From assembly GCA_937966115.1 (NCBI GenBank), contig CALCKX010000083.1, positions 28,342-92,341 of the forward strand: DNA of 64,000 nucleotides. Direction: 5' to 3'. Position numbers and translations under genes: made by a program. Shown one piece after another: positions 58,045-64,000 of the stretch. Each line of letters opens with the position of its first letter. Positions within the stretch are counted from its first letter, which is position 1. This DNA is from an uncultured Chloracidobacterium sp. Lineage in GTDB: Bacteria; Acidobacteriota; Blastocatellia; Chloracidobacteriales; Chloracidobacteriaceae. Below the pieces are notes generated by a model. That model had not been told where the DNA came from, did not search any database, and saw only the letters and a program-made list of their open reading frames with translations.

Positions 58045-59781
58045 CTATCTCGCCTCGCCGGGCGCGTCGCCAAGCCCTTCGGCGACGAAAGCCAGCTCGC
58101 CGCCCACGACCGTCATCAGGCAGCGCGCCTTGAGGATGTCGGCTTCCGGGATGGCGAGCAGATCGGCCGAGAACACTGTGAAGTCAGCGCGCTTGCCGAC
58201 GGCGATGACGCCCGCCTCGCCTTCCTCGAAGGCGGCGTAGGTCGGCCACAGCGTGAGCATCTTGAGCGCGTCGAGCCGACTGACCGCCTGTTCGGGATGC
58301 CAGCCTTCGCCGGAAAACCCGGCGAGGTCCTTGCGGGCGACGGCGGCGTAAAACTCGATGAGCGGCTCGCCGCGCTCGACCGGCGCGTCCGACCCGCCGG
58401 CAATCAGCGCGCCTGAATCGAGCAGCGACCGCCAGGCGTAGGCCCCCGCCAGCCGGTCAATCCCCAGTCGGCGCGGCGCGAAGTGCAGGTCGCTGATGGC
58501 GTGCGACGGCTGCATGGAGGCGATGACGCCAAGCTTGGCAAAGCGCGGAATATCCTCGGCGCTGAGGATTTGCGCATGCTCGACGCGCCAGCGGGGCGCG
58601 CGGACGCGCCGCTGCGCGGCCGGGATTTCTCTGAACGTTTGCTCGTAGATGTCCAGCGCCTGCCGATTGGCGCGGTCGCCAATCGCGTGCGTCTCAATCT
58701 GAATGCCGGCCCGCAGCGCCCGCCGACACAGGGCGCGCAGCTCGTCCGGCGGCGTGAGAAACAGCCCGGATGTCTCGGCGTCGCTGTAGGGCGCCAGCAA
58801 GGCCGCGCCGCGCGAGCCCAGCGCCCCGTCCAGGTAGGTTTTGATGGCGCGCATGGTGAAGCGCCCGTTGGACTCGCCCACAATGGGGCCGCTGCGGAGC
58901 AGCGTGGCGACTTCCAGCGGGCGGTTGGCGGCGGCGTTATAGACGCGCAGCTTGATTTTCCCCTCCCGACACAGCCGGCGCAGGATGCTGGTTTCGAGCA
59001 GCGAGCTGCCCGCATTGTGAATGGCGCACCACCCCAGCGACAACTCGCGCTGCGCGCCCGCCAGGGCCGCCCGCTCGTAGTCTTCCGGCGAAAGCTTGGG
59101 CAGCAGCCGTCCGACCAGCCCCTGGGCGCTGTCGATGAGCATGCCGGTCGGCCGTCCCGTCGGCTGGTCGCGGAGGATGTCGCCGCCCGGCGGATTGGCG
59201 GTTTTCTCGTCAATCCCGGCCAGCTCGAGCGCCCGCGAGTTCACCACGCTGGCGTGACCGTCAGCGCGCGTCAAATAGACCGGATGCTCCGGCGCGATGG
59301 CGTCCAGCTCGGCGGCAGTCGGGAAGACGGGCGGCATCCAAAAGGTTTCTATCCAGCCGCGCCCGACGACCCATTCGCCCCTCGGCGTCTGCGCGACGCG
59401 CGCCGCGACGGCGGCCAGAAAGGCTTCGCGGGTGGTGGTCGTCCCTTCGAGATTGAGCGACAGCTCCCGCTCGCCGATGCCAAACAGGTGACAGTGGGCG
59501 TCGGTGAAGCCGGGATACATCGCCGCGCCTTTCAAGTCCACGAGGCGGGTTCGCGGGCCGCGGCGCGCCAGGGCGTCAGCCGCGCCGCCGACGAAGACGA
59601 CGCGCCCGCGCCGGACGGCAACGGCCGCGGCCTGGGGCTGCCGCTCATCGAGCGTATGAATGACGCCGTTGATGAACAGCGTATCCGCCGGCGCCGCCCG
59701 TTCGGCGGCGAGCGTCAGGCAGCTCAGCATCCATCCCAGCATCCAGCCCAACAGCGTCAAGCGGGCGATCAGCGATGTCAT
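58045..59781 (-). CDS. Exported amidohydrolase, YtcJ-like
   Basis: Signal peptide; DLKGAAMYPGFTDAHCHLFGIGERELSLNLEGTTT; QIETHAIGDRANRQALDIYE; IAGGSDAPVERGEPL. Confidence 0.93.
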   Translation of the reverse strand: MTSLIARLTLLGWMLGWMLSCLTLAAERAAPADTLFINGVIHTLDERQPQAAAVAVRRGRVVFVGGAADALARRGPRTRLVDLKGAAMYPGFTDAHCHLFGIGERELSLNLEGTTTTREAFLAAVAARVAQTPRGEWVVGRGWIETFWMPPVFPTAAELDAIAPEHPVYLTRADGHASVVNSRALELAGIDEKTANPPGGDILRDQPTGRPTGMLIDSAQGLVGRLLPKLSPEDYERAALAGAQRELSLGWCAIHNAGSSLLETSILRRLCREGKIKLRVYNAAANRPLEVATLLRSGPIVGESNGRFTMRAIKTYLDGALGSRGAALLAPYSDAETSGLFLTPPDELRALCRRALRAGIQIETHAIGDRANRQALDIYEQTFREIPAAQRRVRAPRWRVEHAQILSAEDIPRFAKLGVIASMQPSHAISDLHFAPRRLGIDRLAGAYAWRSLLDSGALIAGGSDAPVERGEPLIEFYAAVARKDLAGFSGEGWHPEQAVSRLDALKMLTLWPTYAAFEEGEAGVIAVGKRADFTVFSADLLAIPEADILKARCLMTVVGGELAFVAEGLGDAPGEAR

Positions 59782-61076
59782 GCGGTGGTTCCTCCTCGCT
59801 CAGTCGTCTGGCGAAGGCGGCGCGGGAGCGGGGCGCGGCCGTCTGCCGCCGCCCAGAGGGCGACGACGAGCAGGGCCAGCCCGGCCAGGCCGAAAGTGGC
59901 GGGCGCGCTCCACCAGTGCGCCAGCGTCCCGGCGCACAGTCCGCCCACCGCCATGCCGCCCCGGAAGCAAACCATGTAGAAGCTCGCCGAGCGCCCGCGC
60001 AGGTCGTCTTCCACCGTTTGCTGAAAGCAGGTCGTGACCAGCGCATAAGCCGCCACCAGAAACGCCCCGCCCGCGAACAGCCAGAGGTAAGCCAGCCACA
60101 GCCGCCCGGTGGCGGCCAGCAGCGCCATGCACAGGCCCAGCGCCGCCTGCGCGCCAACCGCCAGCGGCAACTGCCGCGCCCGCTTGGCAGCCGCGGCGGC
60201 AGCGATGGCGCCGGCCACCGCGCCCAGCCCGGAGCAGGCCGCGAGCCGCGAAAACAAGACTTCATCGCCCTGCCAGACGACTTTGGCATACTGCGGGAGC
60301 AGCGTCGGCATGGCAATGCCGAGTCCGGTGGTGAGCGCCGCGAGCAGGCACAGTCGCCGCCGGAGCGGGTTGCCGAAAACGTACCGCGCGCCAGCCAGGA
60401 TATCCTGTTTCCACGATTGGCTGGCCGCCGCCGCTTGCTGCGGCGCGCGAATCGTGGCGAGCGCCGCCATGACGGCTAGGAACGACAGGGCGTTGAGGGC
60501 GAAGCAGGCGGTCGCGCCAAAGCGCGCCAGGACGAGTCCGGCCAGCATTGGCCCGACGACTCGCCCCAGGTTGAACTGTATGGCGTTGCCGGCGATGGCC
60601 TGTCCGACCAGGGGCTTGGGGACCAAATTCGGCAACAGCGCCAGGTAGGCCGGCCCGCTCATCGCCTGCGCCATGCCGGTCAGAAACGATAGGCCCAGCA
60701 TCGCGTAAACCAGCGGCCATCCCTCAAGCGCCTGCGCGCCGACGAGAATAGCCAGGGTTGACGCGCTCGAAAGCTGGATGGCCTGCGATGCCAGCAGCAG
60801 CTTTCGGCGGTCAACGCGGTCGGCGATCGCGCCGCCCGCCAGCGATAGCCCCAGCATGGGGGCCAGGCCGAGAAAGGCGTCCAGACCAAGGTAGAATGGG
60901 CTCGCCGTCAGCTCCAGGATGAGCCAGGCCTGCGCGACCTGCTGCATCCAGCTTCCAACGCTGGAGGCGAATGCGCCGGCCCACTGGCGACGATAGTCGC
61001 GAAAGGCGAAGGCGTGAAGCGCCTCGGGGAGCCAGGGCGGGATGTCCAATGGGTCGGACGTTTCGGGAGCGGGCAT
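59778..61076 (-). CDS. MFS transporter (DUF894/enterobactin-exporter-like)
   Basis: FRDYRRQWAGAFASSVGSWMQQVAQAWLILELTASPFYLGLDAFLGLAPMLGLSLAGGAIADRVDRRKLLL; ATGA overlap with next gene; start at MPAPETSDP. Confidence 0.93.
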   Translation of the reverse strand: MPAPETSDPLDIPPWLPEALHAFAFRDYRRQWAGAFASSVGSWMQQVAQAWLILELTASPFYLGLDAFLGLAPMLGLSLAGGAIADRVDRRKLLLASQAIQLSSASTLAILVGAQALEGWPLVYAMLGLSFLTGMAQAMSGPAYLALLPNLVPKPLVGQAIAGNAIQFNLGRVVGPMLAGLVLARFGATACFALNALSFLAVMAALATIRAPQQAAAASQSWKQDILAGARYVFGNPLRRRLCLLAALTTGLGIAMPTLLPQYAKVVWQGDEVLFSRLAACSGLGAVAGAIAAAAAAKRARQLPLAVGAQAALGLCMALLAATGRLWLAYLWLFAGGAFLVAAYALVTTCFQQTVEDDLRGRSASFYMVCFRGGMAVGGLCAGTLAHWWSAPATFGLAGLALLVVALWAAADGRAPLPRRLRQTTERGGTTA

Positions 61077-61305
61077 TTTGGCGTCGCCAGACGGAGCGGG
61101 ATGAGCGTACAAGCAAATGCGGGCGCCGAAAGCGGCCGCGCGCCAGTCAAGGCGGCTGCGCGCTAGTTTCCGCTTGGAGCGTCGGCGCCGCGCGGCGCGG
61201 CCGTCGGGCGGCGCTATCTTTACACCATCGCCTGGCCTATAGTCAGCCTAGCTTTCCAGAGCTAAACGAGCGCCGCCGCGCGCTTTTTCTTTGTGGGTGA
61301 AGGCC

Positions 61306-62949
61306 ATGGCGTGGCTCGTCGAGCTGCTCAAGGGCAATCCGCTCTTGCTCCTCTTCATCGTGATCGCCATCGGCTACCCGCTTGGCCGGATTCGCTTGTT
61401 CGGTCACCGGCTGGGCATCGCCGCCGTTTTGTTTGCCGGACTCGCGATTAGCGCGCTCGACCCGAGCCTCAAGCTGCCCGAAGTCATCTACACGCTGGGG
61501 CTGGCGCTGTTTGTCTATACGACTGGGCTGAGCAGCGGGCCGGGGTTCGTGGCCTCGTTTCAGCGCAAGGGCTAGCGGGATAACCTGCTGGTTATCGGCC
61601 TGCTCATCATCGCGGCCCTGTTGGTTGCCGGGGCGCAGCGCGTCTTTGCATTGCGCCCCATGCTGGCCGTCGGGCTCTTCGCCGGAAGCCTGACCAACAC
61701 GCCGGCGCTGGCGGCGGCGCTGGAGCAAGTCAAGGCGGCCGCGGACTCCGACGCTCGGCAACTGACCGATCCGGTGGTTGGCTATTCCATCGCTTACCCC
61801 ATGGGCGTCATTGGCATGATGGCCGCCATCGCGACGCTCTAGCGCGTCTGGCGGGTGAATTACGCCAACGAGGCGCAGCGCCTGCGCGATCTGGGCGCGG
61901 TAGGTCAAAAGCTTGTCAACCGCACGGTGCGCGTGACGCGCCCGGAAATTAGCATCTTGACGGTTGACGAGCTGCTGCGCGCCAAGCGGTGGCAGGTCAT
62001 CTTCAGCCGCGCCTTGCACGACGGGCAATTGACGCTCGTTGACGACGCCACCCATCTTCAGCAGGGCGATTTGGTGAGCCTGATCGGCACGGAGGAAGAG
62101 ATTGCCGAAGCGGCCGCCTTCCTTGGCGAGATGACCGCCGAACACCTGGAGCTTGACCGCAGCAAGCCCGATTTCCGGCGCGTTTTCGTATCCAACTCGC
62201 AGGTCGTCGGGCGACCGCTGCGCGAGTTGCAGTTGCCGCAACACTACGGGGCGCTGGTGACGCGGGTGCGGCGCGGAGACATCGAGCTGTTGCCCTATGG
62301 AGATATGCCGCTGGAGCTGGGCGACCGCGTGCGCGTTGTCGCGCTGCGGGAGCGGATGGAGGAGGTCAGCGAGTTTTTCGGCGATTCCTACCGCGCGCTG
62401 AGCGAAATAGACATTCTGACCTTCAGCCTCGGGCTGGTGCTGGGGCTGGCGCTCGGGCTGGTTCCGTTCCCGCTGCCCGGCGACGGAACGTTTCGCCTGG
62501 GCGTCGCCGGCGGACCGCTGGTCACGGCGCTCATTTTGGGCGCTCGGGAGCGCACGGGGCCGCTGGTGTGGAACATGCCCTACAGCGCCAACCTCACCCT
62601 GCGCCAGATTGGCTTGGCGCTGTTCCTGGCCGGCATCGGCACGCGCTCCGGCTATGCGTTTGTCAGCGCCCTGGCCCAGCGCGACGGCGTCATTTTGTTC
62701 GCCGTCGGCGCGCTGGTGACGTGCGGCGTCGCGTGGCTGACGCTCTGGATTGGCTATAAGCTGCTGCGCCTGCCGATGAGCTTGCTCATTGGCGTGCTGG
62801 CCGGCTTGCAGACTCAGCCGGCTGTGCTGGCCTTCGCGCTCGAACAGACGAAAAACGACGCGCCAAATGTCGGCTACGCGACCGTCTTTCCAATGGCGAT
62901 GATAGCTAAAATCCTGTTGGCGCAAGCGCTGGCGCTTTTTCTACGCTAA
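61306..62949 (+). pseudogene. YidE/AspT-family transporter (TM - RCK_C x2 - TM) interrupted by two in-frame TAG codons
   Basis: ORFs 61291-61575, 61621-61842 and 61855-62949 share one frame; joining gives ...LFVYTTGLSSGPGFVASFQRKG*RDNLLVIGLLIIAALLV...GLFAGSLTNTPALAAALEQVK...MMAAIATL*RVWRVNYANEAQRL...; TAG at 61573-61575 and 61840-61842. Confidence 0.85.
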
Positions 62950-63125
62950 ATTTCCGGGCGCCTTGCCCGCCCGCTTTGGCGAGCGGCCGCGCGTCGCCTG
63001 CGCGTCCGGCCCTCCCAGGGCGGCGCCAACGCTGCGCCGGATGGATTTGCTTCCACGGTCGGCAATGGGGCATGAACATCCCGCGCGTCAATCGTCGCGA
63101 CGGCAAAGCCGGGAGCAGAAAGTCT

Positions 63126-64000
63126 ATGGGGTATCCGCTCGAAGAACATCACGCCGCCATTGGCGCGACGCTGCGCGCCGAAGGCGAACAGCTTGTTCCA
63201 GCCCGCTACGGAGCGCTTGCCGCCGAATACGCGGCGCTGGTCAGTCAAGTCGGCATCGTTGACCTCAGCGCCCACGGGCGCTTCGCCGTCGAAGGCAAGG
63301 ATCGCGTCGCGTTTCTCAACGGCTGGGTGAGCCAGCACGTCAAGCCGCTTAGGCCGGGCCTCGGCGTGGCGGCGCTGTTCCTGACGGCGCAGGGCAAGGT
63401 CATTGCCGATGTGACGCTGGATTGCCTCGCGGATGCGTTTTGGCTCGCGACGGACGTGGCCGCCGCGCCGGCCGTCCAGAAAAAGCTTGCGCCGCTGGCG
63501 CGCGCCGGCGATTTCCGCCTCGCGGATTTACGGGCCGCCTATGCGGTCATTGGTCTCATCGGCCCGGATGCGCCGGGCGTCATCGAGCGCGCGACCGGGG
63601 CGAAGCCGGATGCCTGGCGAACAACGTTGACCGTCGAGAAGGTCGGTGGCGGGACAGAAGAGCTGCCGGTTTTCGCGCATGAGCGGCTTTGCGTAGGCGA
63701 TGCGCCCGCGCTGACGGTTCGACGCCCGCGCTACGGGCTTCCGGCCTTTGAGCTGTTTGTGCCGCGCGAGAGCGCCGTCACGGTCTGGAAGGCGCTGACG
63801 GGAGCCGGCGCGACGCCGGTCGGCTGGGATGCGCTGGAGGCTTGCCGAATTGAGCGCGGCGTCGGCCGTTTCGGCTATGATTTCGATGATACGACGCTGG
63901 CCCCGGAGGCCGGGCTGGGCCATGCCATCAGCTACACGAAGGGCTGCTACGTCGGGCAGGAAACGGTGGCGAAAATTCACTGGCGCGGTCACGATCAGAC
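63126..64000 (+). CDS. GcvT/YgfZ-family folate-binding protein (3' truncated by window edge)
   Basis: Not in ORF track. ATG 63126: MGYPLEEHHAAIGATLRAEGEQLVPARYGALAAEYAALVSQVGIVDLSAHGRFAVEGKDRVAFLNGWVSQHV...EAGLGHAISYTKGCYVGQETVAKIHWRGHDQ (KGCYxGQE motif). Confidence 0.9.
   Translation, partial: MGYPLEEHHAAIGATLRAEGEQLVPARYGALAAEYAALVSQVGIVDLSAHGRFAVEGKDRVAFLNGWVSQHVKPLRPGLGVAALFLTAQGKVIADVTLDCLADAFWLATDVAAAPAVQKKLAPLARAGDFRLADLRAAYAVIGLIGPDAPGVIERATGAKPDAWRTTLTVEKVGGGTEELPVFAHERLCVGDAPALTVRRPRYGLPAFELFVPRESAVTVWKALTGAGATPVGWDALEACRIERGVGRFGYDFDDTTLAPEAGLGHAISYTKGCYVGQETVAKIHWRGHDQ

Follow-up and report, generated by a model that had tools for sequence, protein, structure and literature searches.

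How a transporter gene comes to carry two in-frame TAG codons and no other lesion, and whether such codons are read as amino acids or mark a recent loss, is the question raised by one locus in the window, the stretch of 64,000 nucleotides from an uncultured Chloracidobacterium sp. that we analysed as a whole. The frame at 61306-62949 (+) comprises 547 codons, and its translation contains exactly two internal stops, both TAG and both in the context CTAGCG, at 61573-61575 (+, codon 90) and 61840-61842 (+, codon 179), with no frameshift over the whole frame. This agrees with the preliminary description, which had reported three open reading frames in one frame, parted only by these two codons and free of indels, and had weighed a very recent pseudogene, a sequencing or assembly error, readthrough or suppression, and split subunits. 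Our tests favour the first of these; a second assembly, the genomic correlates of recoding and the position of a potential restart codon (TTG 61621) spoke against the others. We conclude that the locus is very probably a young pseudogene: a transporter gene that was gained by horizontal transfer and later disabled by nonsense changes.

Open frames abut at stop codons by chance quite commonly in the GC-rich genome to which the window belongs (G000; 1380 TAGs with at least 30 open codons on each side in 645 kb). The TAG-interrupted gene is nevertheless real, because its whole product has homology. In domain scans of the product, read with X at each TAG, PF06826 matched in two stretches (E = 1.5e-71; 240 bits against a cut-off of 27), TIGR01625 also in two stretches (E = 7e-67; 224 bits against a curated cut-off of 71.95), and TrkA_C (PF02080) at residues 292-359, between the membrane domains (E = 2.5e-21; 75.8 bits against a cut-off of 27). 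The product thus has two Asp-Al_Ex domains over the curated cut-off with an RCK/TrkA_C region between them, and it belongs with its intact relatives to the AspT/YidE/YbjL superfamily (PF06826, TIGR01625), which has the same domain order of membrane domain, RCK region and membrane domain; it aligns over residues 7-540 with AspT of solved structure (solved relatives: AspT 8xw5, 8y1x, 9veb and 9oqy). The second TAG lies near the point where the first membrane domain gives way to the RCK region. The third segment (61843-62949, +), which is open, holds the TrkA_C (RCK_C) region and the second Asp-Al_Ex domain. Unlike the known members of the superfamily, the window gene has two TAGs and scores below the equivalog cut-offs of both the aspartate:alanine antiporter AspT (TIGR03802; 238 bits against 546.95) and the YidE-type putative transporter PRK03818 (NF003007; 409.7 bits, with X at both TAGs, where 449 is required); because these specific cut-offs were missed, we name the product to superfamily level only. 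Opposite the broken gene lies an antisense open frame of 560 amino acids (61243-62925, -), which probably just mirrors the GC-rich codons of the gene.

Intact relatives carry sense codons at both sites. At the first, relatives read GLRDN, and 34 of 39 have Leu, encoded by TTG in one of the two nearest intact genes (L069) and by CTG in the other (L070); the preliminary description had placed a Leu here by comparison with E. coli YidE (GLRxN), one substitution from TTG, and the Leu is right. At the second, 32 of the 39 have Gln, encoded by CAG in the nearest relatives and in all five close relatives checked. The TAGs are therefore lesions without counterpart in the orthologues, which have Leu and Gln codons in their place. 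That both stops are TAG is unsurprising, because TAG accounts for 62% of the opportunity for single-step nonsense changes here. The window gene also departs from a conserved column once (G49S), whereas four close relatives show no such departure. Two TAGs with no other lesion in a complete, family-like frame speak for a pseudogene, and so does G49S.

The nearest intact genes are those of Roseiflexus (L069 and L070), 81% identical in amino acids along the full length of the protein and 78.6% identical in DNA; relatives within the window's own family reach only 52-55%. A maximum-likelihood tree nests the window gene in the Chloroflexota, joining it with Roseiflexus (support 99/95) and then with a further Chloroflexota gene (100/100). 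DNA similarity to Roseiflexus ends with the gene on either side, being confined to 61280-62930 (+), which we take as the acquired segment, and a congener (G002) matches the window up to 61094 and again from 63030. The flanking genes are native: on the left an MFS-type transporter gene (59778-61112, -) and on the right a YgfZ/GcvT-like gene cut by the window end (63126-64000, +), both named from their sequences without a family scan. Congeners carry both genes without the transporter, and we found no convincing transporter remnant between them; around the acquired segment, a search for a target-site repeat gave short matches only, none convincing. The gene was found in only 2 of the 7 genomes of the genus, G000 (85% complete) and G003 (99% complete). 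Gene distribution, tree and homology boundaries together support acquisition by the window's lineage, most likely, as judged from these sequences, by horizontal transfer from Roseiflexus-type bacteria. The gene's codon usage agrees well with that of the host, so it may have been in this lineage for a while. The MFS-type gene of G002 has one in-frame TGA of its own (L171, G002:C222:19458-20729).

Both TAGs recur in G003 (CALGZC01), an uncultured Blastocatellia bin, on contig C21 (CALGZC010000021.1), which is 99.97% identical to window positions 60899-64000 over 3.1 kb, with one difference at 61745 (Asp/Ala). Because the two carriers differ at this one base only, a strain-level dN/dS is unusable. 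Elsewhere, where compared, G000 and G003 are about 76-83% identical and thus represent different species. Downstream of the YgfZ-like gene, C21 diverges from the continuation of G000 (C75), and the gene at its far end is 87% identical to G000 and 87-90% to other congeners, so no closer to G000. Either recombination has recently carried this block from one species to the other, or C21 is chimeric or was assigned to the wrong bin; under each of these, the TAGs have been seen in a second assembly. An error at both sites might be entertained for two draft metagenome assemblies, but the G000 and C21 contigs share both TAGs and yet are distinct, with one base changed within the shared block and different sequence past the left junction and further downstream, although their samples are possibly not independent. 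Sequencing or assembly error is therefore very unlikely, and close to negligible.

Two further features of C21 (L063) were seen. Past the nearly identical block, its identity to C75 (L184), taken per 100 bases, varies from about 62 to 98%, a pattern that points to interspecies recombination or to a chimeric contig. At the other end of the block, C21 leaves the window sequence abruptly at 60898, inside the MFS-type gene, and the sequence beyond this junction (the first 358 bases of the reverse complement) ends, by eye, like a transposase gene; an insertion element may break the MFS-type gene in this contig.

Selection was estimated with a codon model, run with our own scripts on a fixed six-taxon tree of the window gene and five intact relatives. 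Omega was 0.067 on the window branch and 0.058 in the background, omega = 1 was rejected by about 50 log-likelihood units, and the first, second and third segments gave 0.064, 0.082 and 0.060, respectively. Purifying selection thus acted on all three segments, including the third, for which the preliminary description had called for such an estimate. A terminal neutral phase on the window branch had its best likelihood at zero, and the likelihood fell by 1.92 near 0.07 substitutions per codon, or about 0.023 per site, a limit that is approximate since synonymous change is near saturation on the longer branches. Because any neutral period was at most about 0.023 changes per site, the stops are young if the gene is a pseudogene; the earlier remark that a lack of indels is unusual for an old pseudogene was fair and matches this age. 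Some observations pull the other way: there is no indel, and it is mildly unexpected that so short a neutral phase should have brought two nonsense changes. Even at the neutral limit (about 38 changes), fewer than one nonsense change is expected, because nonsense makes up about 2.2% of point changes in the gene. All three segments still look constrained, as would also be expected if the gene were still translated, and constraint by itself fits a young pseudogene and a translated gene alike.

No tRNA with a CUA anticodon was found among Rfam-model tRNAs decoded by ARAGORN in either genome (46 matches in G003, 39 in the 85%-complete G000). No match to PylS passed the cut-off (best matches 21 bits against 178), and those below it are probably other class II synthetases. 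RF1 is intact, with its PAT and GGQ motifs present, and TAG is an ordinary terminator, ending 107 of 345 long frames sampled in G000 (about 31%) and 80 of 236 in G003. In 645 kb of G000 we found no other comparable TAG-broken gene, judging by eye the stops flanked by coding-like sequence, most of which look like junctions of neighbouring genes; in this coding-potential scan, strict first thresholds missed even the known TAGs and were relaxed after the data had been seen. With no CUA tRNA found, an intact RF1, TAG not avoided and no comparable TAG in another gene of the 645 kb, we rejected TAG reassignment and dedicated suppression, and, with no PylS over the cut-off, pyrrolysine insertion. None of the genomic correlates tested thus backs the suppression proposed earlier, and we saw no sign in the genome that amino acids are inserted at the stops.

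A separate stop-codon observation concerns TGA. In a peroxiredoxin-like frame of G000 (L208:6354, -, contig C71), an in-frame TGA gives a UxxC motif (IUPFC), and the frame likely encodes a selenoprotein. ARAGORN identified a tRNA-Sec in G000; SelB was found over the cut-off in five congeners and not in G000, which is 85% complete.

Low-level readthrough is one rival reading: near-cognate tRNAs (for Gln, Tyr or Leu, for example) could yield a little full-length transporter, perhaps as down-tuned expression. The base after both stops is C, and C after a stop is a weak termination context. Constraint on all three segments, the lack of any other lesion and the native Gln at the second site are compatible with this, and bacterial in-frame stops with dN/dS below 1 are reported to be widespread (PMC7918605). 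However, the output would be very low because two stops multiply, the constraint is already accounted for if the stops arose recently, and the genomic survey above applies equally; we consider such readthrough very improbable. The residue in relatives is not the same at both sites, being Leu at the first and Gln at the second. That ordinary near-cognate tRNAs usefully translate both TAGs, giving a functional, selected transporter in a lineage without a suppressor tRNA, seems to us decidedly improbable.

Another possibility is that translation reinitiates after each TAG and the pieces assemble into a working transporter. The position of the second TAG near a domain boundary would suit this, as would GTG 61855, the restart codon named in the preliminary description, which is indeed present five codons past that TAG. 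The first TAG, however, cuts the first membrane domain, and TTG 61621, the first start beyond it and the only usable one nearby, falls within a hydrophobic part of that domain. By eye, neither TTG 61621 nor GTG 61855 is preceded by a clear Shine-Dalgarno sequence, and none of the intact relatives examined is split. Split subunits fit poorly and are highly improbable.

We therefore favour recent loss. A Roseiflexus-type AspT/YidE transporter gene most likely entered a hot-spring, Chloracidobacterium-like lineage between two native genes, and it evolved there under purifying selection. Two recent substitutions would then have turned a Leu codon (codon 90, probably TTG) and a Gln codon (codon 179, CAG) into TAG, the ancestral codons being those suggested by relatives. 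Translation would now end after 89 residues, leaving no working transporter. The broken allele also lies on a contig binned with a second species, where at least 3.1 kb around it are almost unchanged.

A recently disabled, acquired transporter gene of this sort is an already known kind of thing. Many orthologous in-frame stops in bacteria are reported to have dN/dS below 1 and to be mostly short-lived (Belinky et al., 2021; PMC7918605). The present case resembles these in that related genomes share each stop at an identical position, dN/dS is low and the stops are apparently short-lived, and its TAG at a CAG site matches the worked example in that study; it differs in having two stops and in being horizontally acquired. 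From its Roseiflexus orthologues, for all their whole-length similarity, it differs in lacking sense codons at both sites. The locus offers a worked case of how clean in-frame TAGs in a GC-rich metagenome genome can mimic recoding, where the tRNAs, RF1, the use of stop codons, comparison with relatives and a codon model together indicate that a borrowed gene was lost not long ago. Should readthrough be demonstrated instead, the locus would be a rare instance of a gene retained with two ambers in the absence of a dedicated suppressor.
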